The notes below the pieces were generated by a model. That model was given only the letters and a program-made list of their open reading frames with translations. It had not been told where the DNA came from and did no database searches. From assembly GCF_018143015.1 (NCBI RefSeq), contig NC_054743.1, positions 33,071,934 to 33,135,933 of the forward strand: DNA of 64,000 nucleotides. Reading direction: 5' to 3'. Source of the stretch: Lytechinus variegatus (Eukaryota > Echinodermata > Echinoidea > Temnopleuroida > Toxopneustidae). The position numbers and the translations under genes were made by a program. Of the stretch, positions 7,146 to 42,617 are shown piece after piece; position 1 is the stretch's first letter; the number at the start of each line of letters is the position of its first letter.

Positions 7146-10100
7146 CTATTCTCCTTTGCATGTGCATGATAAGCAATTGGCCATCGATTTCCTATACATT
7201 CGCAGTTCTTTCTTAACACGTCTGTTCATAAAGGCGTATACCATAGGATCCGCTATGGTCATGCAGTACGTCCACCAGACAGCCAGGACCCCGAACAGCT
7301 CCGAAGTTGAATCGAATGAATACCAGATGAAAAGTGGAATAGTGAAGAAGATACTACAACAGACCAGTAGCACACCTTTAGGGAAAATAAGATGGAATAG
7401 CGTTTGAATTCTGAAAGAATTATTCTTCTAAAAATTCAATCTGTTTTGATCAGGGTTAAGACTTCCTTGCTGTGGAAGAGTATCCACCCGAACCTGAAAT
7501 AAAAAAGCTATTCTCAGGGGCTGTTATCTTTTGCAGGCCATTCAAAAGCGTGTTACTAAATTTCCCAAGTTCTTACTAATAGAGGGCCTAAGAATATTCT
7601 ACCATGCTTTCAAAAAGTCTTTACAAGTGGGGGAAGGTGTATTAGACATAGTTGCTCTGAAAGGAAGTCTTTCTTAACATGCGCAAAGAGTATTCGTACC
7701 ACCACACATGTATTAAACATTAATATTTGATATGGCAGTATTGCTTACGGGAATTGCATACGAGGTTTTAAATTCACAGTATTTGTGCAAATCATGCCGA
7801 AATATATAATGAAAAAATGAATTCTCTCATTTTTGAAAAAGAAGAATGCTTTAAACACAAAAAGGTCAGTGGTACGCCTACGGAAAGAAAGTGCTTTCCT
7901 TTAGCTTTTTTGCCATCATATGAGATAATTATATCTTCTCCTAGACGTCAGTTTTACCTGTCCACGCGACTCTCCTTTGCCTAACTATTCGCAACTTTTC
8001 AAGCTTCGTCTTTCGAGTTCTCCGACGGACTCGCTTCGGTCGTATGACGTCCTCCCCGCTTTCGTCATCCTTGCCGGTGGTGAAATCCACCCCAGATGGT
8101 GACATGGAGTAAGTGGTAATTGTTTGAGATGGTTCAGAATCGAAATCACAGGTCTGATCATCATCTTCGCTGTAGTTTTCAGTGACATCATCATCATCGT
8201 TGTAATCCCGGCCATGGTTTCCAAGCCCGACTACACCCTTGAGGCTGCCGAACAGGTTGGACAAACGTCTTGTTCGCGTTTCAATGACAGTTCTGTAAGT
8301 CGTACCAATATCATCTTCTCCTGTTGCCGCAGTGTATAGACTGGTACCAGGAGTGAAACCAGTTCCATGTGCAGATTTAAATCCTTTGATGACACAGTTG
8401 ACATCACCATCATTTACTGCGTCTTCTTTGGCGCTAGATTCTCGCTTGATATTCAGCAATGCACTCAGCCGAGACCCGAGGCCGTACCTTCCTCGTGAAG
8501 CGCCCTCACGTGTAAGAGTTGATCCATCATCGAGCACTACACCTTTCCTTCTGCGTTTCACTACTTCCTTGTCTTTCAAAGCGAGTGAAACTTCACAATC
8601 CTCTACTTTACCCATTGGTTGTACTACTGATCTTTCAGTTTCATGCGATATGTGTCCTGTGGTAGCCACTGGGCTATAAACCTGCTGTCCAGGGCATTGT
8701 GGTGTGTTTTGCTCGAAATCGACCGATTCTGTATCTGCAAATGTGATATCAAACTTCACCTTTCGTAGACCAACAGGACTTGAGGGAATCGGTCTTGCCG
8801 GTCGAGCTCGCACTGTTGATTTAAGTCCACGTCGCCGTCTTCGCGTAAGCTTGCGATCCCTTTTCCAGAGTAAAACCGCTATGACGGTGTAGGAAACTAT
8901 CATTGTTGGAAGTACAATCGCAAGAATGGTGACCATTGTCAGGATGTTCTGGGAAAGCGTATCACTCTTCCAATCAAGCGGCAGGCACATCTTCAATTCA
9001 TCTGTGTACCCAATATTTGTTTTTAAGACAGGAGGTAGAGAAATCGTTGAAGCTATAAGCCAGGTCAATGTCAGCATGACACGAACTCTTGCCCAATCGG
9101 AAATTCCACACTTGTTGCAAGACGTGACGACAATAACCCGATCTACGGCGATGAATGCAATCGTCAAGAAGTGGGTGTAGCCAAAGGAGAGGGCAAAGAA
9201 ACCAAAAATCTGTTATGAAAAGATTGAAAAGAAGATGCTACCATTTATTTCAATTCCTCAGGAATCTCGTTTCTCTGTGATCATATAGAATAAACAATCA
9301 TCAATATCGAGCGTAGCAGGGCATGGAGAAAATGTCCCCATCCCCGGATTGAAACGTGAATTGTTACGTCTTACGAGTACTTTCCTACGATTCCTCGGAT
9401 TTTAAGCACAACCATGATCAGTGCATAGCGTCATCAGGTAATTCAACAATTGAGTGTGTGTGCGCGAGGGTGGGGAGGGCAGGGGGGTGGGGTATTAGTG
9501 TATATAATGTCACATATTTTCTCTTTTTCCCATTTAACTAGAGGTATCATACATACATGATGCAGTCACCTATATTCGATGGTGTTCTTTCTTTTTGTTT
9601 CTCCCTTTCTATCACCCTTTTGTAATTTTTTAGCACTTAAAAAAAATAATTATTTGTACGTGCTTGCAGCTGATGATAGCTAAAATAATGTCGTATAAAG
9701 GACTGAGGGAATGTATTGCATCATGATCATGGGCTTAACCTTTGCGAAAACAACAATTTCGAATCATTATTATCTGGTCAAGATTTATAAAAGACCTACA
9801 CTGTTAGAAAATTTATCCTTAAAATAAAAGAAGTTCTTGCAGCCGAGTCTCGAGAACACCTGTAATCTTACCAGATTGCGTAATCTTACAAGAAATTGGT
9901 ATTTGGTGTGTGTAATCTTACAAATTTCCTTAAATAAAACACTCTTTTCCCCTTTTTCTAACAGACCTGTTCTGTTAAATTGCAGAAAAATTCCTGTTTC
10001 ATGAATTTAAAGAATGATTCTGGTATTGCTTTCTGCAAATCTTCTTTTATTTTTCTGTAAAATCAGGGTTTTTTTAACAGTGTACACATTTTTATTGTAA

Positions 10101-10742
10101 TACCTTTCTTTTTAAATCTCATACCTTACTTGATCATGATACTATCCATTGATTTGAATTCTAGCGACTTTCCATCTATTACTAATAATTACATTGGAAG
10201 TATGATTGCTTTTATGTAATGTCTATACTATAAATATATGGCGTTAAAATCTCCACTGGTCGGTGTTATGAAGAAACCGCACGCCAAGTGTCAAAATACA
10301 CAACACAGTTTGAATATAACACCAAATGATTACGATATAACAAAGAAAATAACACCAATCATTGTTGTACTAGCACGGTGTAGTGTTTTGAGCCGGTCCC
10401 ATTACAACAACGACCGGTGTAATTTTGACACCACTGCTTTTGGCATTTACAATGCATCTCCTTCTCTCAGCTCATTGAATATACCTTACAGCAGGTATCC
10501 TCCAAACCTTCGCCATGATCAAAGACTGATTTGAGAGAAAAGGGCATGGCCAGAAAAACCCTTCCAAGATCAGCTGCAATCAGGTTTAAGATGAGTAGGT
10601 TATGGGGAGTCTGTCTGAGGCTTCGAACCCGCAGGATTGTGATCAGTGCTGTTAGGTTCGTTAGTAGGGCCACCAGCATGATCAACACCAAACTGCAGAG
10701 GAAGAAAAATACCACAGAAATATGAATTGTTCTTGAAGGCAT
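7146..10742 (-). CDS. Class A (rhodopsin-like) G-protein-coupled receptor with a very long third intracellular loop
   Basis: Exon model by eye: 10742-10485, 9209-7958, a weak 31-nt microexon 7493-7463, and 7410-7146, giving about 601 residues. Exons 1 and 2 join in phase 0 (donor AAG/GTATAT). The last two large exons do not share phase unless the microexon, or another small exon, is used. Visible hallmarks: TM1 with TNLT; TM2 NLIAAD; TM3 opening with CCK; DRV in place of DRY, 24 residues after the TM3 Cys; TM4 Trp and Pro; an ECL2 Cys; TM5 Pro and Tyr; TM7 ADPMVY. The loop between TM5 and TM6 is about 270 residues, starts with KRDRKLTRRRRRG, holds an Asp/Glu-rich patch, and ends basic. The retinal Lys position of TM7 is Tyr and the aminergic Asp of TM3 is Ala, so an opsin or amine receptor is unlikely. 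The ligand is unknown. The extracellular N-terminus is only about 7 residues from this ATG, so a 5' exon may be missing. Confidence 0.82.
9797..10085. mobile_element. MITE with TACACTGTTA termini inside the GPCR intron
   Basis: The left end TACACTGTTAGAAAA pairs with the right end TTTTTTTAACAGTGTA. TA at both ends suggests a TA target duplication, as in Tc1/mariner relatives. The interior contains three TGTAATCTTAC words. It has no coding capacity and lies in the first GPCR intron. Confidence 0.6.
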
Positions 10743-10751
10743 TGTGATTTG

Positions 10752-10991
10752 CAGTGGCGTACCTAGGATTTTCCACGGGGGGGGGGGGGCAAAACCGGTC
10801 GAAAAATTTGACTAGCAAAAAAAAAGTCTTTAATCACAAAGGTCTTCAAATCGTACCATAAAAAAAAATTGAAAAGCAAAAAAAAAAAAGAAAAAGAAAG
10901 GTCTTCAATCATGCCATTAAAAAAATGAACAAGCAATAAAAATAAAAAATTATTCAGTCGTACCAGAAGGTACGACGCAGGTACGCTAGTG
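10752..10991. mobile_element. 240-bp hAT-like non-autonomous element just upstream of the GPCR start codon
   Basis: The left end CAGTGGCGTACC and right end GGTACGCTAGTG are inverted with two mismatches. The candidate 8-bp target duplications GTGATTTG (10744-10751) and GTGACGTG match at 6 of 8. It carries a poly-G run at its left end and A-rich sequence inside. The ends resemble those of the element at 19999-21192. It stops about 9 bp before the GPCR ATG. Confidence 0.65.
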
Positions 10992-27299: not shown

Positions 27300-29640
27300 T
27301 ATTTTAAGTTAGCTTTAAGTTAGAATTTGACCTTAGTCTTCACTTATCCATCCCAATTGTTTAATGACCGATTCTGAACTACTTAATACTCCTCCAGATT
27401 TAATCGATATCAAAGAATGCCGATACTACTTACCGAGCAAACTTAATGATGTACCAATTAGTTCATCAGACTTAAGCCTTCTTCATCTCAATGCCCGGAG
27501 CTTATCGTGTAATATAGATAAAATACAAAGTCTTTTGTGTTCTTTTAGACATATAGTTTCTCTGTTATCTGTGTAAGCGAATCATGGCTTCATGATCGAT
27601 CCCCATGCCAATTGTTAGACCTCGAGGGCTACAAAATGCTTCGTGCAGATAGAAAGACTGGCCGTGGAGGTGGAGTTGTTGTGTACGTAAAGGATGATAT
27701 CTCTTTTCATTTTTTCAACGACGCCTCCCTTTCTCCCGACTTCCAATCCCTTTTCCTTGAAATTAAGAACAACCGGAATAAAAAGAACGTCATAGTCGGT
27801 TGGAGGGGCACTGCATTGTTTGTGAACAATGCTGTGCCCCTCCAATGCTTTGTTTCCTCCGGGTTACGGTCCGCTGCTGACCTTGATCCTCTTTTAAGTT
27901 CTTTTTTCTCGAGGGGGTAAAGAAATCTTTCTCCTTGGAGATTTTAACATCTTCAGATTCTCGAATTAGTAGCACATTTACGAATTTTCTTCATTCGTAT
28001 GCATTGTATCTATTAATAGATAAGCCGACACGCATTGTTGGCTCCTCGCAAACCCTGCTTGATAATGTTTTTACAATACAAGTTCTTTATCTGAAAATCT
28101 TCAAAGTGGAATACTATATTCGGACGTCCCCGACCACATGCCAGTCTTCGCTTTTCACAAAACACACAGTCACCCAACTATAATCAATAATCCTAAACAA
28201 GGGCTTAGTTATTTAAGAAAAAAATACGCCAGAAGAAATTAAAGAATTGAATAATGCTCTTTGCAAAGAGAAGTGGTCAGTAGTTTTTGAAGTGCAAAAT
28301 GATGTCGATAAGGCCTATGATCTGTTTCTTGATATTTTATTGAAAAAAATTCAATAACACGTCCCACGTCGACTTGTAAAAGGCAATAGATGGAATATAA
28401 ATCGTAAACCGTGGATCACTAAAGGTTTACTTAAATCAATTAACTGGAAAAACGTCTTATTCAAGAATTACATACGTAATCCAAGTGACTTATCACTACA
28501 CAATAAGTTTAAAAGGTATCGTAACAAATTGAACGCCTTGATTAAGCATTCTCGAAGACAAATTATTTTAACAAATTGCATGCTGCATCCGGTCAAACCT
28601 CAGCAACATGGACAATTTTAAACGAGATACTAGGGAAAAGAAAAGGAAAAGATTTTCCTTCTGAACTTAATATGAATAACTTAAAAACTAGTGAACCACA
28701 AAAATAGTTAATATGCTTAATAGTTACTTTGTCAACATCGGTGTAAATTTATCAGATTCTACAGGTGGTAATGAGCCGTCTCCAAAGGAGTCATTATTTC
28801 CAAGATGCAGTAAATCAATATTTTTCCAACACGTTACTCCTAGCGAGATATCCATTGCCAAAACTCTGAAAAACAGTAAATCATGTAGTCACGAAGGATT
28901 GAATACTTTTATTTTAAAAAAGATCATCGATAATATCGCTGATCCATTATGTCATATATTCAACATGTCGCTCACGACAGGAACTTTCCCCCAATCCTTC
29001 AAACTGGCAAAGGTAATACCAATATTCAAAAAGGGTGACCGCAATCAATGTAACAATTATCGACCAATTTCAATATTGCCTTGTATGTCTAAGATTCTCG
29101 AACGGATAGTTTAGAATCAATTATATTCTTTCTTATTTTAACATGATATACTGCTCCCCACACAATATGGCTTTCGTAAGAATTACTCTACAGATTTGGC
29201 AATATTGGACATATATGATAAAATAACAACTGCCATCGCCAAAAAGCAATTTGTCGTAGGTGTCATGTTAGACCTGTCCAAGGCATTCGACACCCTAAAT
29301 CATAAAATTCTACTCCATAAGCTCGAACAAAGTGGTGTAAGGGGAACGCCACTTGCATGGTTTAGTGATTATATTTCCAACCGGCAACAATATACCGAAT
29401 TTGACAATCATAAATCCGATATCCTAAATCTGAAATGTGGCGTCCCCAAGGGTCTATACTCGGGCCTTTCTTATTCCTAGTTTATGTAAATGATATCTCA
29501 CATGTTTCTCCCAATCTACAATATGTCTTGCTTGCTGACGACACAACCCTACTGTACACTGATGAAAATCTGGATAATATTTTTTCTCTGTATAACAGAA
29601 AATCGAGTTCATGGACGATCGGATGAATGGGTTATCTATA
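27300..29640 (+). mobile_element. Decayed non-LTR retrotransposon (CR1/Jockey-like LINE) with endonuclease and reverse transcriptase
   Basis: In order and across several frames: LLHLNARSL and ESWL-type endonuclease start (27470-27600); GYKMLRADRKTGRGGGVVVY (27625-27680); IDKPTRIV and LLDNVFT (28015-28075); a basic linker (RKPWITKGLL, 28405); and reverse transcriptase blocks GDRNQCNNYRPISILPCMSK, VVGVMLDLSKAFDTLNHKIL, GVPKG and LADDTTLLYT. The D-LSKAFDTLNH and ADD catalytic motifs are visible. The element ends abruptly after the ADD block at about 29640, so the thumb and C-terminal part are missing, which is unusual for a LINE. Several frameshifts and stops show it is inactive. Confidence 0.88.
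27800..27845. repeat. 21-bp-arm hairpin inside the LINE endonuclease
   Basis: TTGGAGGGGCACTGCATTGT... at 27800-27820 pairs with 27825-27845 with one mismatch around a 4-nt loop. It lies where the family normally reads VIVG-VYRPP, so it looks like a short insertion of about 65 bp. Confidence 0.7.
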
Positions 29641-30056: not shown

Positions 30057-31095
30057 GTAAAATGGCAGAGGTAAAAATGGCAATGGTAAAATTGGCAGAG
30101 GGAAAAATGGCAGAGGTTAAGATGGAAAATCCATTAAAAATCGAGAAAGTTATTAGAACTTTTAAGTTTTTAGTCTATGACGTCATATATACGAGCAGCT
30201 GCCCCATGATAATTTGTGCACTACAAAATGTATATTTTTCCATTTTTTGATGGTTAGTGATTGCTGAAAAAAAATAATTCAAGAGCGGAAGTGCGATAAA
30301 TCGTCTCTTGATATACTGAAGATACAATAAAAACAATTTTCATTTTTTAAAAAGAAAATTACGTTACTGATATTGTTTTTTATTACACCATTTACGGGAA
30401 AGCTGTTTGCAAATGACGTCACCATTAAAATAATATTCTAATAATAATAAATAATAATAACTCTTATTTACCCAGGGTAGCCACTCTCAGCTGTAAGCTG
30501 TTCTTCCAGCGGGCCCTGCATAACATTATATGTTATTATTACCCTTCTCCATTCTAAATGCTGAGCGCCAAGCAAGAAGGCTGAAGGTCCCATTTTTATA
30601 AGTCTTTGGTATGACTCGGCCGGGGATCGAACCCACGACCTCCCGTCCATCAGGCGGGCGCTCTACCACTGAGCCACCATGTCCGGTAATAGCTTTTGAA
30701 TTCTTCGATAGATTTCCTAAAACCCTCACCAATATTATTTTTTATATTTTCTACTATTTTTATAATAAACTTTATGTATAGTGATCCAAAGTGAGCTTAA
30801 AATGTGAATATTAGTAGAGCGATTTGACATGAGAAGGGCCACGCATGCAAATCCAGGAAAACAAAATAAACCAACAAAAGGTTTATGAATTTGGTGCAGA
30901 CGATCTATCTATGATTTAAAAATGTTACCCTTTCCATTAGTCAAACATTATAATTTTAATTTTCTTCTCAGAACCTTTCTTGTTTAATCTATGTGCATGC
31001 GGAGGCATTTTGACAATTTTTTTGCATGGGGGTTTAAGATTTGCCATTTTATACTTCTACCATTACTATTTTTACCTCTGCCATTTTTACACCGA
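30057..31095. repeat. Inverted pair of AAAATGGCAGAGGTAA arrays about 0.9 kb apart
   Basis: 30057-30130 has five copies of a unit like AAAATGGCAGAGGTAA. 31036-31092 has the complement (TTACCTCTGCCATTTTTA and relatives) three to four times. The arms could close a large loop that contains a SINE and may be the ends of a composite foldback element. Confidence 0.55.
30455..30686 (-). mobile_element. tRNA-derived SINE, second family
   Basis: On the minus strand it starts GGACATGGTGGCTCAGTGGT (A box TGGCTCAGTGG), followed by GAGCGCCCGCCTGATGG and the B box GGTTCGATCCC. A non-tRNA body and a TAATAA-rich tail follow. The head resembles a tRNA gene, but the body, tail and lack of cloverleaf closure argue for a SINE. 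Confidence 0.75.
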
Positions 31096-34094: not shown

Positions 34095-35457
34095 ATAATG
34101 ATAATAGTGATAAATAATAATAACAACAGCAAAGAATAAAGTGCTTTGACCCACTGGTAACTGAAGAGGTATAGTTTATCCGAACTTTGGCTGAACTTTG
34201 ACTAACGACAGACAAGTCTTGTATGCATTTCGGGTTTGTTGGAACTTAGCCATCAAATCCTGCAAATCATCAGAAATTTTAAGCAAACATTGTAATCACA
34301 GCATTTAAAACCAATGTGATACGTTTCTGCAGATGGAATTTTGCAGAATTTATTCGGAGAATATTTATATTTGCAGAATATTTAGAGGTTAGAAGTAAAT
34401 ATGTTGATTTTCATCCCGATTTACATAAATTAATTTGTGATTCCGTGTTCAAGTTTGTATCAACTCAGATTAACTAATCAAATTGTGCTTAATAGCTGGG
34501 CCCCTGTATTTTACTTATCTTTCTATATCACATGCTTTATGTATGATTTAATTATCAGTCTTTGCCATTATTGTTTATCTCTTCAATTATCACATTTAAC
34601 ATGAATTCATTTACATTTTTTTTATTATGTGAACATGTTAATTTATCATTGATTCATGATTGAAAGTATTGAAATACAGAAACTCCTGTAAAAAAAAGAT
34701 GATCACTAGATATCCATGAACGAAATGAAAGGAATACATTTTCCAACATTGAAACACCTGTTTCTAAAAAAAAATAATAATAATAATAAAAAAAAAAAAA
34801 AGAAAGAAACACCTGTTTCTACACAGGGGTGTCTACTGTTATAGTGGAAGGTCTGAAAATGTAGAAACATGTATTTCACTTACATAATATTATTGGAAAA
34901 ATTATCAAGAGATTTACAGTAAATTACTACCCCAAGTTGCCAAGTAATTCGATATGCATCATCCTATAAATTTATTATTCAAAGTTCATTTGTTGAAACC
35001 AAACTCAACTTGGTGGCATTTCATATTGTTTTCGTGTTAATGCGCTCATAGATGATGACAGACTTTGACCTGACAGCATACATCTTAGGATCAGCTATCA
35101 CAATAGATAACCATCGATTGTTATGATTCTGACAAAGTTCCCATAAATACTATTTTCACGGCGAAGCAATAATAACAGTAGCAGTCTTTATCAACAGATG
35201 ATCTTATTGTCAATCAAATTCGTGTGTAATAGCACATCCGACGAGACTTGTTTTGATTCGGTAGCTTTAAGACGAGAAAATATTATTTTGATTCTCCTAA
35301 AATCAAAAGGACATGGTACATAACAACTACTGATGTTTATTAGCTGACACTGTGGCCCATTCACCCCTAAATCAACATATTTTGTTGGCCTACATGAGAA
35401 TATTCATGCATTTATTCATGTTTGTTCGTTTGTTTGTATTTTCACTTCATTATCAAG
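34095..35457. other. Intergenic stretch upstream of the creatinase gene
   Basis: AT-rich, with a short direct duplication of GAAACACCTGTTTCTA at about 34751 and 34807 and A/AAT simple sequence between. The proximal promoter of the creatinase gene should lie at its right end, but no clear TATA box was identified. Confidence 0.4.
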
Positions 35458-38400
35458 ATGTATCGCTCCCTGATTCGTCGAGTTTCATCCGCAGTCGATG
35501 TCATAACCAGAGCCCAGCAAAATCGAATAGGGAGGGCCATAGCATCGAGTGGATATCGACGGAAAGAAACGAATTGTTACAATGGGAACCTTGTTCGCTT
35601 CTCGTCTGAAGCAGCAACATCCCCAGCGAACCAGGAGATGCCAAGACTTTATACCTTGAACAATGGAGAAAAGGTAATTTTTCCGGCGTACCAAATCTCT
35701 ACATTAACTAGTTATGAATGTGTTTATTTATGTATTCATGAAACAATATCTTAATTGACTCTCTCTTCGGCAATATTTATGATACAATTGACCTTATAGA
35801 TCTGCCAATAGTGTATCAGATGTATAAAAATAAGGTTGAACAAAATTGTTAAACAGTTTAAATCTTTATTTTTAAGTAATGTTAACCCTCATTAATAAGA
35901 TTCAACATAAAAGAGGAAATTTCCGTACTTACCCCCCCTGGTTTATCTTATACTTATATTCATTTCTTATATTCTTATATTTTTCGAAAGGTCTCCCCGA
36001 CTTTTTCAAAAGAAGAGATGGACAGCCGTATAATGATGGTAAGGAAATACATGGAAGAAAACCACCTCAGTGGAATCCTTTTCACCTCAATGCATAACGT
36101 TAATTACTTCTCAGACTTCCTCTACTGTTCCTTCGGTCGTCCCTACGGCTTGGTCATCACCGCGGACAAGGTAACGAGCATCTCCGCAGGAATCGACGCA
36201 GGACAACCCTGGAGAAGGACAAGCACTGGAGGTAACGTTATCTACACCGACTGGCACCGGGACAACTTCTGGGTCGCCGTCCAGGAGGAACTGGCCAATG
36301 TGCCTTCGGGAAAGATCGGTTGCGAATTCGACCACATGACGCTGGACAACATGGTGAAGCTGGAAAAAGCCGTTTCTGGCAAGGACATCGTTGACGTCGG
36401 AACGCCGATGATGATGCGGAGATTGATCAAGTCCGATGAGGAGATTGCGTTGATCACCGAGGGGGCGAGGATATGTGATCTCGGGGGAGATGCAGTGGTT
36501 GGTGCCATCGCAGAAGGTGTTGGTGAACACGAGGTGGCCCTCCAGGGTACTGAAGCAATGGTCATGGAGATAGCTAAGTCCTTCCCTCATGCAGAACTTA
36601 GAGATAGTAAGTTCCCAGTATCACTTCATCTGATATCAGTCATGTCGGTGTTTTCACAAATCATGTTGTTAGGCCAAAGAGGACGTATATTTCATTTCCC
36701 TGTATATTTAGCCCTTTTGCTCCGTCAATATCCCACCGAATCTTGGATATACCACACCGACGCGTCGGTGTGGTATATCCACAGCAGTTATTGTGGAGGC
36801 GTCGTGGTCTAGTGGTTAAGACTCTCATCTTTCAATCTGAAGGACCTGGGTCCGATTCCAAGCCATGGCATGTTTTCCTTCAGCAAGGAATTTACCCAAA
36901 TTGTGCTGCACTCAACCCAAGGAAAGTACATGGGTACCGACAGGAAGTAACCCCTCAAAAAGCTGTGCGCATCGGATTAGCCTGAGATTTACGTGAGCGC
37001 CTTGAGCACCTATAGCAAGGTGGATACGTGCGCTAGACGAATCATATATTACTATTATTATTATTTATTAATTTATTTCTTATTTTCTTTTTAACGATAT
37101 TGTATTTAAAAAACGACAATGCATCACATTATATCAGTTCAATGTCTTAAACAATTGGTTGCTTATTGAGCTATTAGAATTATTATAGTAGTATCAGCCA
37201 TTAACTAGCCCTATCTAAAGTATACTGTTCTTTTTCATCATGTTCATTCTGTAGCATGGATTTGGTTTCAATCTGGTATCAATACGGATGGAGCACATAA
37301 TCCTGTGACATCGCGCAAAATTCAGAAAGGTGATATTCTTAGTCTGAACACATTCCCCATGATTGCTGGGTAAGATATTATTTCTTGGTACTGACACATC
37401 TGTAGCGTAGGCAGGGTAGGAATGAACTTAAAAAACTGTGAAAAGGTACAAATCAGGGAGCGAAGCGACCGAGCTGCTCCTTACATTGAAGAGTTAAACG
37501 ACTCTCCTTAGCAAGTTAAAAAAATCACTAAAATGGTGATTTTCTTAATTTCGAGGTAGATAGGTGAAATTCCTAACAAGACTTTATAGCCCTGAACATT
37601 TTTCTCCATTATCGAATAATAATTTATGAAATAAATAAATAAATAGTATTTAATAATGTTCTGCATTTTGTAAGAAGCGGGGATGGGGGATCAGCCGATC
37701 AGCTCTTGACCCAGATAGCTTTAGAATTCAACATTTATATTGCAATTTTACTGCCATGAATTCCACCCAAAATATATTGTGCACCATTAATTGATCCCCC
37801 GCCAAAAAGCCAAATCAAACCAAACAATATTATCGAGTAGGCCTTGTCAGATTCACTCCCTTGCTCAGCTGCTTCGGATATTTCCCTAAATATTTCACAT
37901 TACCCCCGATACCCCCCCTTCCGTGTCTGCGTTTGACTAGAATTTTCTCGAATAAGGTAGAGATCATCTTCAAATTAACTTCTCTATAGAAAGATTTTTG
38001 CATCTCACTTGCTTACAGCTAGAGAAGATTTGAAAATATGATTATCGTCATTGTTATGGTACTGACATCCTCGTCTCATTAGTTATATCCATATTTTACA
38101 AAAGCTATTACACTGCTTTAGAACGAACGCTGTTCTGCGACCACGTCCCCTCTGATCGACACATGGAGGTATGGGAGAAGAACTGCGACATTCACCGACG
38201 CGGTATGGCTCTCATCAAGCCAGGTGTTCGAGTATGCGACATCGCAGCCGAGCTCAATGACGTCTATCGGCAGTACGATCTCCTCAAGTACCGGAGCTTT
38301 GGGTACGGCCATTCCTTCGGTGTGCTGTGTCATTATTATGGCAGAGAAGCAGGTGAGGGTATGCTACCGTCACACCAACGAAACCGACTCCTGACCGACC

Positions 38401-41400
38401 AAAGCAATTAGGTTATATCGAATGGTAGACCATCGGTCGGCTTGGAGTCGGTTTTCGTTGGTGTGACTGATCAGGGCCCGGGCCCCGTCGCACAAAAGTT
38501 ACCATTATGGTAAAATATGGTATACCATTGTGGAGCGTTGTGGCCCAGTGGATAAGTCTTCTGACTTTGAAACAGAGGGTCGTGGGTTCGAATCCCAGCC
38601 GTGGCGTAATTTCCTTCAGCAAGAAACTCATCCACATTGTGCTGCACTCAACCCAGGAGAGGTGAATGGGTACCCAGTAGGAAGAATTTCCTTGAATGCT
38701 TGAGCGCCTAAGCAGCCCAGCTAAAGCCGGGGTAATAGTAATAGCAGGGCCCACTGGTAGAACAGTTTTCGAAACTGAAGTGGCTTCCCTGGGTAAATAT
38801 ACCTATATTATTGTTATTATTATTATTATTATGGTAACTTTGGCATCCAATGGTAACGCTGATCAACAGCCAATCAAAATCCAGGATCTTATGGAAGTAA
38901 CCATATTGGATGGCAAAGATACCATAATGTTAACTTTCATGCGACGGGGCCCTGATCTGTAAGGATGCCCCCCCGGATCCCCCACTCTCTTGACATACTG
39001 GGGAGCGCTTCGTGAGAGGACTTGAAAGATTTTTTATCCGACATTTCCCATATTAACAGTCAGATGTTTGAGCTTAATTCTTAGTCAATCGAAATCAAGG
39101 AGTTGTCAGATCTGATATCGTCTCAGACGACATCAAAATGAAACGACGGAACCCATTCCTGTTGAAGGTCGACCATTATTGTCCCGAGTCACCTACAATA
39201 GTTGGCCGGTTCTCTGACAGTGTCTGATGAGGAGTCGCATGGAAGTAAAAAGCAATACGGTTATATTATTTTAATCTATAGCAGCCGTCTTCTCCGTACG
39301 CAAAACTATTTCTTACCACTCCTGATTGGGGGTCATGGAAAAGTCAAAGATGTCTACAACGCATGACTTATCTGAGAACCGTCGGAGAATCAGGGTGCCA
39401 AAGGGAACCACTGTTTTATTTTTTTTTATAAAGAGGGCTGATGTATTTGATATATGCTTCAACGAATTCAAGACAAAAAATACGTCTCCTCTTTCTCAGG
39501 GCTTTGTCCGGGTCACATTGAATGATCTGAATATAATCCTAAGGAAATCCTACTGTATTCTTAACCCTAAGAAGACTGGGGGCTGATTCAGCCCCCCATC
39601 GACATTTTTCGTGATAAATCTGCCACGCGAATTTTTGACCACGTCACTAGCTGAATTTTTACTTTCAAGTCTCGCGCAACTTTTGAGACCAAAATTGTGA
39701 CCCCCGAGTACGCGGTTCCGAAATTACACAACATTTTTTAAGTGCATGCAGACCAAAAATTACTCAAAAACGTGACTTTGTGTACAAATCCAATGCAAAT
39801 AGTGTTTTTAGCCAACATTCATTGAATGTATCATTATTTTTCCTTTAACTGCATAAAATCAATTGATTTTATCTTTTTATGGTCAAAATAAAGTCCCTGA
39901 CGATTTCCATTGAAAAAAACAATAAAAAACAAAAAGTCGAAAAACACAGAAATACATAAATTTAGAAAACAATAGAATACATTTGAAATTTTTGAAAAAT
40001 AAATTTGATCAGATGCCTATCTAGAGTATGTGAAACAAAAATTATCATTTTAGGGGCATTATGTTATTCGCTAGAGCAAACTTATGATTTTACGCATAAA
40101 TTAGCATAATTAATGAGCAATGAGATTTTTCGCAGACTTTGATATTTTAGTTTTGTAGATAATGCCATGGGTAACTCGCGTGCCAATTTTCGTCGCGATC
40201 GACGGCCGAGATCATAAGTGGGGGGGGGGGGGGGCTGAATCAGCCCCCCAGTCTTCTTAGGCGTCGAAATAGCCCAGTCTATTTAGGGTTAAGGAATAAT
40301 GGGGAGAATATAATCATAGGAAAACCCTACTGCATTTTAAGGGATAATGGGGAGAATATAAACCTAAGAAAACCCTACTGCATTTTAAAGGGGTAATGGG
40401 TAGAATATAATCCTAAGGAAGACCTACTGTATTTTTAAGGGATAATGAGGAGAACATAATCCTAAGGAAACTCTTCTGTTTTTTAGGGATAGTGGGCAGA
40501 ACATATTCCTAAGGAAACCCTACTGCATTTTAAGGGATAATGGGGGGAATATAAACCTAAGGAAACCCTACTGCATTTTAAAGGGGTAATGGGTAGAATA
40601 TAATCCTAAGGAAGACCTACTGTATTTTTAAGGGATAATTAGGAGAACATAATCCTAAGGAAACTCTTCTGTTTTTTTTGGGGATAGTGGGCAGAATATA
40701 TTCCTAAGGAAACCCTACTTCATTTTTAAGGGATAATGGGGGGGGGATATAATCTTAAGGAAACCCTACTGTATTTCTAAGGGATAATGGGGAAAATATA
40801 ATCCTAAGGAAACCCTACTGCATTTCTAAGGGATAATGGGGAGAATATAATCATAAGGATAAGATGCTTAAGGGATAATGGGGAGAATATGATCCTAAGA
40901 AACCCTATACTGTATTTTAAGGACTAAGGCTTAAATAGGAATGGGACATTATTATTTTTCTAAATATATTGTCAAAATATGTCCCAAACCTAATTTTTCG
41001 TATTATTGTAAAAAAAAAATCGTGCTGCGCGTATACCCCACTGGTTTCCCCTTTTCACTCGCAGTGTAGTAGCTCCACTGTTTTGAAGTACATTTGAGTG
41101 ATATTCATATGCTCTTAACTTTCGCCATTTATATACAATCGATACTGTTCCTTCACAGTTTATCAAAATAATAACCATGAGATCTGTCCGTCATTTATTA
41201 TTTGCGATCTGAAGTATTCTTTCTATGGGATTTAAATCTATATATCTATACATTTCTTTAGGGGTCCGTTTCATGAAGACTTAAAGGGATGCTCCGGGGC
41301 TGAAAATATTTATATCTAAATAAATAGAGTAAAATTCACAAAGCAAAATGATGGAAATTTCGTCAAATCTGATAACAAATAGTTAAGTTATTGAATTTTA

Positions 41401-42402
41401 AAGTTTAGCAATATATTGTGAAAGCATGCACGTAGTCATGAATATTCATTAGGTGGGTTGATGTCACACCCCCACTTTCCCTTTTTTATGTTACTTCATG
41501 ATATCATGATTGGTTTATTTTTCATACATGTGTCAATGATATGTCTCCCTCAATGGAATAAGTTACAGCAATCAATATCTAATGCACTTAATCAGTTGTT
41601 ATTCCAATAATTTGGGCTCTTGAAGGGAAAAAATTGAATAAACCTAATTTCTTCATTTCTTTTAATGAAACAACCAAAAAAAGTGGGGATATGACATCAT
41701 CAGTTTTCTCATTGAATATTCTTGAAGACATGCCTAGAACTGCTTCACGTACCAGAATAATTCAATAACTTCGTTATTCCTTGTCCGATTTTGATACAAT
41801 TTTCAGTGTGTTGTTTATCCGATTTTTTCTTCATCTGTCCATATTATTTTCAACCTGGAGTACCCTTTAAACGTGGTAGCTTTGCCACAACTGCTGATCC
41901 ATGCCATGGTGGTTGTTATCATGGCAAAAAGTTTATGGAACGACGCATTGGCGGCGGAAGCCAAAAAAATTAGGGGGGGAACCACCAAAATTTTGCAAAA
42001 AAAACAGATTATCAACAAAAAGTTTAAGGGGGGTCGTCCCTGGCCACCTGAAATCACGTCCCCCCCCCCGCTTCCGCCGCCTATGGACCGACGGGGAACG
42101 ACACCCTAGACACCTTCAAAACACTTTTCAAACCCATGTCATGACTCAAAATCGTTCATTAAAAGATTAATAAATACTCCCTATGTTACTTCCATTCCAA
42201 AGCTCTTGAAATTCGTGAAGACATCAAGACAGTATTGGAACCCAACATGGTGATCTCAATGGAGCCTATGGTCACCATACCAGAAGGCCAGCCAGGCGCA
42301 GGAGGTTACAGGGAACACAACATTCTGGTAGTAACACAAGATGGTGCCCGAAACATCACTCATTTTCCGTTCGGGCCCGAACACCTTGTTGTGAGAAAGT
42401 GA
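35458..42402 (+). CDS. Creatinase (creatine amidinohydrolase, peptidase M24 fold), 464 aa, five exons, probable mitochondrial presequence
   Basis: Exons: 35458-35673, 35991-36606, 37255-37369, 38105-38352, 42203-42402. All junctions are GT-AG and every phase fits (0, 1, 2, 1), giving 464 residues. Creatinase hydrolyses creatine to sarcosine and urea as a dimer with a pita-bread fold but no metal. The known bacterial active-site residues all have counterparts: Phe120 and Arg122 in CSFGRPYG, His292 in TDGAHNPVT, Glu322 in YTALERTLF, Arg396 in HYYGREA, Glu419 in SMEPMV. His292 and Glu322 are offset by 60 from bacterial His232 and Glu262. The first 60 residues (MYRSLIRRVSSAVDVITRAQ and on) are Arg/Ser-rich and poor in acids, like a mitochondrial presequence. 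SINEs and DNA transposons fill the introns, so the gene is eukaryotic and not a contaminant. It could instead act on a related guanidino compound. Confidence 0.93.
36795..37050 (+). mobile_element. tRNA-derived SINE in creatinase intron 2
   Basis: GGAGGCGTCGTGGTCTAGTG and GGTCCGATTCCAAGCC correspond to the A and B boxes. The body CCTTCAGCAAGGAATTTACC, CTGCACTCAACCCAAGG and GCGCCTTGAGCACCTATAG follows, with a TATTAT tail. It is older or a different subfamily from the 38532 copy, with a diverged head. Confidence 0.88.
38369..38467. mobile_element. 99-bp MITE with 23-bp inverted ends in creatinase intron 4
   Basis: GTCACACCAACGAAACCGAC at the left pairs with GTCGGTTTTCGTTGGTGTGAC at the right (one extra T). 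The middle contains CCGACC / GGTCGG words that also pair. It starts 16 bp after the exon 4 donor. Confidence 0.75.
38470..38958. mobile_element. MITE with GGGCCCCGTCGCA ends, carrying a nested SINE
   Basis: The left part (CCGTCGCACAAAAGTTACCA) and right part (TTAACTTTCATGCGACGGGG) are inverted. Between them a SINE at 38532-38832 interrupts paired GGTATACCAT / ATGGTAAC words. The SINE therefore arrived after the MITE. Confidence 0.7.
38532..38832 (+). mobile_element. tRNA-derived SINE in creatinase intron 4
   Basis: GGAGCGTTGTGGCCCAGTGG, GGGTTCGAATCCCAGCC, CCTTCAGCAAGAAACTC and CTGCACTCAACCCAGG are near-identical to the 33838-34094 copy. A (TTA)n tail ends it. Confidence 0.9.
39526..40930. 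repeat. Roughly 50-bp minisatellite with higher-order pattern, split by a transposon
   Basis: The unit is like AATATAATCCTAAGGAAACC then CTACTGCATTTTAAGGGATA plus ATGGGGAG, about 14 copies. One copy lies left of the insertion (39526-39564); the rest at 40289-40930. A four-unit block (CTACTGC, GACCTACTGT, ACTCTTCTG, CCTACTG variants) occurs twice in a row, so a block of about 190 bp was duplicated as a whole. It lies in creatinase intron 4. Confidence 0.85.
39565..40288. mobile_element. 724-bp piggyBac-like non-autonomous element
   Basis: TTAA flanks both ends (39561-39564, 40289-40292). The element starts CCCTAAGAAGACTGGGGG and ends in CAGTCTTCTTAGG... TTTAGGG, with subterminal GGGGGCTGATTCAGCCCCCC palindromes at each side. 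TTAA plus CCC termini fit piggyBac. The flanking minisatellite units confirm the insertion point. No transposase is present. Confidence 0.8.
41285..41866. mobile_element. Kolobok-like MITE, 582 bp, in creatinase intron 4
   Basis: Flanked by TTAA (41281-41284 and 41867-41870). The ends AGGGATGCTCCGGGGCTGAA and TTCAACCTGGAGTACCCT are inverted repeats. The interior is largely palindromic, with TCATGAATATTCATTAGGTG and its complement-like partner. TTAA plus a purine start fits Kolobok; piggyBac is less likely. Confidence 0.75.
41946..42088. mobile_element. 143-bp GGCGGCGGAAGC-ended element in creatinase intron 4
   Basis: The left end CATTGGCGGCGGAAGC pairs with GCTTCCGCCGCCTATG at the right. CGACG at 41941-41945 and 42089-42093 is a candidate 5-bp target duplication. 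Poly-G and poly-C runs are inside. It ends only 114 bp before exon 5. Confidence 0.65.
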
Positions 42403-42611
42403 CAATCATGCGACACAAAATAATATCATGAATGTATTGTCTTATTTTATTTGCAGTTCGAACGATCGTGACTGTCCCATATGACTCAGTAAAAACGCTG
42501 TTTTAAATGTTATACAACGTTGCTTTCTATTTGAACTTAACAGTAGTTGTTTAACAGTTAAATTTAAACTTGTGTTAAAATGATATCTTAGACAATTAAA
42601 GTTTAATCTTT

Positions 42612-42617
42612 AATAAA
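42612..42617 (+). promoter_or_regulatory. Candidate polyadenylation signal of the creatinase gene
   Basis: AATAAA about 210 bp after the stop codon, in AT-rich sequence. A plausible 3' end, not decisive. Confidence 0.4.

Follow-up and report, generated by a model that had tools for sequence, protein, structure and literature searches.

The sea urchin Lytechinus variegatus carries an intact, nuclear, intron-containing gene that is, judged by its sequence, a creatinase gene. It occupies positions 35458-42402 (+ strand) of the 64,000-nucleotide stretch analysed here, which is referred to as the window. Creatinase (creatine amidinohydrolase) is a homodimer known from bacteria, where it hydrolyses creatine, yielding sarcosine and urea. 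Animals are generally considered to lose creatine non-enzymatically, and vertebrates lose it as creatinine. With a probability of about 0.74, the sea urchin protein is a nuclear-encoded creatinase that is imported into mitochondria, hydrolyses creatine without a metal ion and thereby supplies sarcosine to the one-carbon pool.

The gene consists of five exons, all joining in phase, and encodes 464 residues followed by a stop codon. Exon 1 (35458..35673, +) encodes Met1-Lys72, which comprise the N-terminal extension (residues 1-60) and the start of the creatinase core (12 residues). Exon 2 (35991..36606, +) covers residues 73-277 plus a single base of codon 278; Phe120 and Arg122 lie in this part, which holds the N-terminal domain of creatinase. 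Exon 3 (37255..37369, +) encodes residues 278-316, including His292 and Asn309, and shares codon 316 with exon 4 (38105..38352, +), which encodes residues 316-398 with Ala320, Glu322, His385 and Arg396. Exon 5 (42203..42402, +) encodes residues 399-464, including Glu419 and His437, and the stop codon. The four introns of 317, 648, 735 and 3850 bases (phases 0, 1, 2 and 1) are all of the GT-AG type. Two possible polyadenylation signals (AATAAA/ATTAAA; 42595..42617, +) begin 193 and 210 bases downstream of the stop codon. An independent entry, 'creatinase-like [Lytechinus pictus]', is of equal length and 97% identical from end to end. The exon joins are supported, because this entry differs at only 16 of the 464 residues. 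The GT-AG introns, the open frame and the L. pictus entry confirm the complete, phase-consistent five-exon gene of 464 residues that the first-pass annotation had proposed. The same window also carries a GPCR gene and an LRAT gene.

The protein is a creatinase by sequence, as the first-pass annotation had suggested, and groups with creatinases, far from Xaa-Pro peptidases, by scores, fold and tree. Its bit scores to the solved creatinases 7yto (Alcaligenes), 1chm (Pseudomonas putida) and 1kp0 ('Actinobacillus') are 567, 547 and 524 respectively, and that to the next M24 chain is 78. In the alignment with 1chm, 236 of 401 residues are identical. The L. pictus protein is 57-61% identical to the solved creatinases, and a predicted monomer model of it, standing in for the window protein, finds the same three creatinases at ranks 1-5 of a fold search (TM-score by target 0.92-0.93) and a prolidase at rank 6 (0.83). 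The protein matches the Pfam domains PF00557 and PF01321. It passes no creatinase model in NCBIfam, where the best match is PepQ with 89.8 of 630 bits. Xaa-Pro dipeptidases and aminopeptidase P, which are M24 metallopeptidases, have the same fold and the same two Pfam families, and it has to be considered whether 'creatinase' is a misnomer for an ordinary Xaa-Pro aminopeptidase or prolidase of animals. Their identity in structural alignments is, however, just 16-23%. Moreover, when 40 spread-out records among 700 plasmid records are compared, the creatinase-like proteins form a group with identities of 57-62% (in another comparison, the upper value is 64%), well separated from the next M24 proteins at 21-27%. 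The bit scores, the fold ranking and the loss of metal ligands described below lead us to reject this identity, which is highly improbable.

Conservation of the active site also argues for creatinase. All eight residues of what we take to be the active-site set of P. putida creatinase (F62, R64, H232, E262, H324, R335, E358 and H376) are identical in the alignment with the sea urchin protein. Six of them had been correctly listed before as F120=F62, R122=R64, H292=H232, E322=E262, R396=R335 and E419=E358, and two further matches, H385=H324 and H437=H376, are added here. The two proteins are colinear, with an offset that shifts from 58 to 61 as claimed. The metal ligands of M24 peptidases are presumably Asp, Asp, His, Glu and Glu. 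Three of these five are replaced in the sea urchin protein, which therefore lacks the full set that M24 requires: N309, A320 and H437 occupy the Asp, Asp and Glu sites in the alignment with 3q6d, and the same is seen in 1chm. Bacterial creatinases thus have the fold, the active-site residues and the loss of metal ligands in common with the sea urchin protein. Unlike them, the latter is encoded by a nuclear gene with four introns and has a 60-residue extension resembling a presequence, and its activity is a predicted one. Ten diagnostic positions are intact in 23 of 24 animal or unplaced sequences and in all 58 other sequences, which are bacterial or presumed bacterial. One crinoid paralogue is altered at the positions of F120 and A320.

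This paralogue indicates that drift happens within animals, and the fold includes non-peptidases acting on other substrates, such as DoeA and DddP among the fold matches. The sea urchin protein may accordingly be a hydrolase of the creatinase fold whose main substrate in animals is another guanidino compound or an amide. This possibility is a minor one, given that all presumed creatine-contact residues are present, that the L. pictus protein is so similar to the solved creatinases, and that four of five plasmid neighbourhoods of bacterial relatives hold genes of creatine, creatinine or sarcosine metabolism. Creatininase adjoins the relative in two of these five. One neighbourhood contains serine hydroxymethyltransferase and sarcosine oxidase beta, another contains sarcosine reductase genes, and in one no creatine or sarcosine gene was found. 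In a survey of 79 bacterial loci, 54 of them at least 13 kb long, creatininase lies within about 6 kb of the relative in 20 and sarcosine oxidase beta occurs in just 2, both being raw counts without a chance baseline. Sarcosine reductase was found in none of the 79 by a search with reference proteins. The survey used six such proteins, so that other types of sarcosine-oxidising enzyme would escape it.

The N-terminal 60 residues (35458..35637, +) are predicted to be a mitochondrial presequence, with a candidate processing site RF/SS at residues 47-50. Residues 1-59 contain 9 Arg, 1 Lys, 3 acidic residues (Asp and Glu) and 11 Ser and Thr. An extension of at least 20 residues is present in 21 of 24 animal or unplaced sequences. 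In the extensions of 23 sequences, Asp and Glu account for 39 of 939 residues, versus 1287 of 9249 in the cores, and Arg and Lys for 138 of 939, versus 1003 of 9249. Among 27 presumed bacterial sequences, by contrast, 23 have an extension of 0-19 residues, two gave no anchor, and two have basic, acid-free tails of 34 and 38 residues. By composition and length, the acid-poor basic extension is therefore without counterpart in most bacterial homologues. Of the 21 sequences with an extension of at least 20 residues, 13 carry the motif R[FWY] within the final 28 residues of the extension. Shuffled extensions give a mean of 4.4 such sequences, and none of 5000 shuffles reached 13, but the motif was picked after inspection of the extensions, and the test overstates the result because some sequences (window and L. 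pictus, corals) are close kin. The motif is absent from this region in eight of the 21, including Diadema, Antedon and all four unplaced cnidarian-like sequences. The extension evolves faster than the core, with 7 of 60 versus 9 of 404 residues differing between the window protein and L. pictus. The maximum helical moment, examined for an amphipathic helix near the N-terminus, is 0.76 at LIRRVSSAVDVITR in the window protein, 0.30-0.80 in other animal or unplaced sequences and 0.38 and 0.47 in the two bacterial tails, values that stand without a background distribution. The L. pictus model has a helix at residues 2-20 and low confidence over residues 17-58. The comparison across animals thus supports the earlier suggestion that the Arg/Ser-rich N-terminus of about 60 residues resembles a mitochondrial import signal.

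The protein may instead be a genuine creatinase of the cytosol or peroxisome, its extension not being an import signal. The extension is only 16 residues long in Dendronephthya and 10 in the unplaced sequence P0008, the Paramuricea entry begins within the creatinase core, and basic tails are also found on the two presumed bacterial sequences mentioned above. This alternative is nevertheless unlikely, as the extensions are jointly acid-poor and basic and often contain a candidate processing motif. A C-terminus of the SKL type is a peroxisomal signal. The sea urchin protein ends in VRK, which is not of this type, and the relatives inspected mostly end in KK, KN or KS. Peroxisomal targeting through the C-terminus is rejected. 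By eye, the protein shows no hydrophobic core of a signal peptide.

Under the favoured mitochondrial reading, the gene would be expressed, and the protein would be synthesised in the cytosol, imported through the Arg-rich presequence and cleaved near residue 48 or slightly later. The mature protein would adopt the two-domain 'pita-bread' fold. Bacterial creatinase works without a metal: Arg and Phe hold creatine, Glu residues grip its guanidinium group, and His acts as acid/base. By analogy, two Arg and one Phe of the sea urchin enzyme would hold creatine, two Glu would grip the guanidinium group, and His would serve as acid/base while water attacks, yielding sarcosine and urea. Mitochondrial sarcosine dehydrogenase oxidises sarcosine, and could thus convert this product to glycine and folate one-carbon units, which would give the enzyme a role in one-carbon metabolism.

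The named animal relatives among the matches listed (best 120 per protein search) are echinoderms, hemichordates and anthozoans. Close homologues named 'creatinase-like' are found in Lytechinus, Diadema, Patiria, Anneissia, Antedon, Ptychodera, Saccoglossus and corals, and most have a comparable N-terminal extension. These animals, which include starfish, feather stars, acorn worms and corals, may therefore destroy creatine enzymatically. The names are apparently automatic, as the sources wrote them, and the literature search found neither a functional study of these proteins nor any study of animal creatinase, as judged by titles and abstract openings. A term search for 'creatin' in the main text of a hemichordate genome paper (PMC11175523) gave no match. 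Databases already name such proteins automatically, so that the enzyme itself is not of a new kind; what has gone unstudied is its animal branch.

The non-animal relatives among the matches listed are mostly bacterial or metagenomic and about 62-68% identical, which is close for such a distance and might suggest bacterial contamination of the assembly, or a dead gene copy. Contamination is rejected, given the four introns and the GPCR and LRAT genes of the same window, and the open frame and the occurrence of this gene across three phyla of animals make either explanation barely credible. In the best trees, the animal sequences do not all lie on one side of any branch, but a single animal clade is not rejected (p-AU 0.137 and 0.304). 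An ancient transfer from bacteria with later gain of introns agrees with these results, but no more than that, because the tree is unrooted, only short, weak branches link the animal groups to bacteria, and one or two animal origins are both allowed. For the question of how often animals have acquired a bacterial metabolic enzyme, once or repeatedly, and redirected it to mitochondria, the family is a clean test case.

Vertebrate creatine loss and the proposed sea urchin route both dispose of creatine, but the former is spontaneous and non-enzymatic and gives creatinine, whereas the latter would give sarcosine and urea. If the proposal is correct, the account of non-enzymatic creatine loss changes for echinoderms, hemichordates and anthozoans, and the phosphocreatine system is tied to one-carbon and nitrogen metabolism. 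More tentatively, and with the odds somewhat against it, a mitochondrially targeted creatinase may pre-date the cnidarian/deuterostome split and have been lost in vertebrates. In that case, many marine invertebrates would have a pathway of their own, encoded by the host genome, that turns creatine via sarcosine into glycine, one-carbon units and urea and allows phosphagen pools to be burned actively or recycled, for instance in sperm-rich gonads once spawning is over. Both creatine and sarcosine have been reported in sea urchin gonad in a metabolome study (PMC12735097). The passages of that study considered here attribute the sarcosine to a betaine route and microbes and do not mention creatinase, which provides a directly testable alternative to these sources.

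The creatinase gene occupies positions 35458-42402 of the window on the + strand and consists of five exons, all on that strand (35458-35673, 35991-36606, 37255-37369, 38105-38352 and 42203-42402), which are joined into 464 residues and a stop codon. All four introns, which are 317, 648, 735 and 3850 bases long and of phases 0, 1, 2 and 1 respectively, have GT...AG borders. An in-frame stop codon is located upstream of the first Met, with no earlier Met in frame (ORF 35398-35754), and AATAAA/ATTAAA hexamers begin 193 and 210 bases beyond the stop codon of the gene. The database protein 'creatinase-like [Lytechinus pictus]' is equal in length to the window protein and 97% identical to it from end to end; the 16 differing positions comprise seven in residues 1-60 and nine in residues 61-464. 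The five-exon, in-phase gene for 464 residues that the first-pass annotation proposed is thus borne out by the joined frame and the GT-AG introns. Intron 4 holds a minisatellite (40289-40907; 49-base unit, 12.8 copies, alternative period 193 bases), and by eye introns 2 and 4 contain tRNA-like stretches resembling tRNA-derived SINEs (~36795-36870 and 38530-38610).

Pfam matches of the protein are confined to two shared domains, M24 and the creatinase/prolidase N-terminal domain, and none of the NCBIfam models is passed. When PDB chain sequences are searched, it scores 567, 547 and 524 bits to three creatinases, and the next match is the M24 dipeptidase 3q6d at 78 bits. A structure model built on the L. 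pictus protein (pLDDT 79.6, pTM 0.79, 18-row alignment) is nearest to these three creatinases, with TM-scores by target of 0.92-0.93, against at most 0.85 to prolidase-type enzymes, the next matches listed. In a spread sample of 40 from 700 matching plasmid records, the creatinase family forms a separate block of 57-62% identity over most of the query, followed by 21-27%; four rows are partial matches of 61-68% identity, and in the best-hit plasmid list identity reaches 64%. In P0003, a metagenomic protein of 611 residues, the creatinase N-terminal part is repeated, which may reflect tandem duplication or an assembly chimera.

Pairwise alignment with Pseudomonas putida creatinase gives 236 identical residues among 401 aligned. 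The residues that we take to be catalytic or substrate-binding in that enzyme (F62, R64, H232, E262, H324, R335, E358 and H376) are all kept, as F120, R122, H292, E322, H385, R396, E419 and H437 respectively, and the residue numbers and offset assigned previously by sequence inspection agree with this alignment. N309, A320 and H437 stand opposite three of the residues presumed to be the five metal ligands of 3q6d, and their counterparts in bacterial creatinase are N249, A260 and H376. All ten of these diagnostic positions are unchanged in all 58 bacterial or presumed bacterial homologues and in 23 of the 24 that are animal or have no assigned source organism (unplaced). The one departure comes from a crinoid paralogue (P0040, Anneissia japonica), which carries F120V and A320G and is a candidate for altered or lost activity.

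The N-terminal extension of the window protein is 59-60 residues long, and its first 59 residues contain nine Arg, one Lys and three acidic residues. In the extensions of 23 animal or unplaced proteins, Asp and Glu account for 4.2% versus 13.9% in the cores, and Arg and Lys for 14.7% versus 10.8%. Among 21 proteins with an extension of at least 20 residues, 13 carry an Arg-Phe, Arg-Trp or Arg-Tyr pair within its last 28 residues; the shuffled mean is 4.4 and none of 5000 shuffles reaches 13, a statistic that ignores kinship among these related proteins and concerns a motif picked after inspection. The motif is absent there from the other eight, including Diadema, Antedon and all four unplaced cnidarian-like proteins. 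Of 27 presumed bacterial proteins, 23 have extensions of 0-19 residues, two have basic N-terminal tails of 34 and 38 residues, and two gave no anchor. The L. pictus model has a helix at residues 2-20 and pLDDT below 50 at residues 17-58. The C-terminus is not SKL-like. The best reading of the leader is that it would direct import into mitochondria. Sarcosine dehydrogenase works in mitochondria, and a mitochondrial creatinase would supply sarcosine at the site of this enzyme.

Animal matches, among those listed, come from echinoderms (the echinoids Lytechinus and Diadema, the asteroid Patiria, and the crinoids Anneissia and Antedon), hemichordates (Ptychodera, four entries, and Saccoglossus) and anthozoans (Oculina, Pocillopora, Montipora, Acropora, Actinia, Dendronephthya and Paramuricea). 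Further phyla may have creatinase, because each search is surveyed for its top 120 matches, out of 8000 or more. The four Ptychodera flava entries (P0004, P0005, P0006 and P0013) share one value for the longest contig and are probably on one chromosome, a possible local duplication.

In a tree of 82 proteins, the ambulacrarian and cnidarian-like proteins form two groups, and the branches that set them apart, both from one another and from bacteria, are short and weakly supported; the ambulacrarian group is weak and open (89/83) and includes a long-branched actinobacterial MAG protein (L076) and an unplaced one (P0008). When these two are left out and five further presumed bacterial proteins are added (85 in total), a weakly supported branch (67/62) sets off the 12 ambulacrarian proteins, whereas the branch that sets off the 11 cnidarian-like proteins, four of them unplaced, is strongly supported (99/96). 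Neither data set rejects a constraint that unites all animals (p-AU 0.137 with 24 of 82 proteins constrained, and 0.304 with 23 of 85). The trees are unrooted, and transfer from bacteria to animals is a natural but putative reading; no donor stands out among bacterial groups. The Acropora muricata isoform P0134 is without a stretch that falls inside exon 2 of the window gene, which hints at coral introns at other positions and faintly suggests independent intron gain.

According to annotation, creatininase adjoins the bacterial relatives on two of five plasmid stretches. Serine hydroxymethyltransferase, serine ammonia-lyase and sarcosine oxidase beta are near the relative on one stretch, sarcosine reductase genes and a BCCT transporter on another, and the fifth has none of these genes. 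At 79 genome loci, the raw counts, which have no chance baseline, are 20 for creatininase, eight for serine hydroxymethyltransferase, three for serine ammonia-lyase, two for sarcosine oxidase beta and none for sarcosine reductase.

Creatine and sarcosine are both reported from gonads of the sea urchin Arbacia lixula, above Paracentrotus levels, and the metabolites are placed in the glycine/serine and folate one-carbon pathways; that study discusses sarcosine in terms of a betaine-sarcosine route and microbes and, in the passages covered, does not mention creatinase (PMC12735097). The animal creatinase gene with a probable mitochondrial presequence that the first-pass annotation described is real, and its interpretation was right for the most part. 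The enzyme kind is already known, and databases already use the name creatinase-like. No study of an animal creatinase was found in the one open collection searched. What is probably new is the combined evidence that animals from three phyla hold a creatinase that is catalytically complete, as judged by its residues, and probably mitochondrial.

Elsewhere in the window, an ORF with a lecithin retinol acyltransferase (LRAT) domain match of 78.5 bits is located at 560-1240 on the - strand, and a rhodopsin-type GPCR gene with a 7tm_1 match lies in two pieces at 7944-9212 and 10470-10811, also on the - strand, which are probably exons of one gene. Reverse-transcriptase-like ORFs of a retroelement are seen by eye in translations at 28695-29477 (+ strand). 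The only Rfam match in the whole window at the gathering threshold is a tRNA at 30612-30683 on the - strand (47.4 bits).
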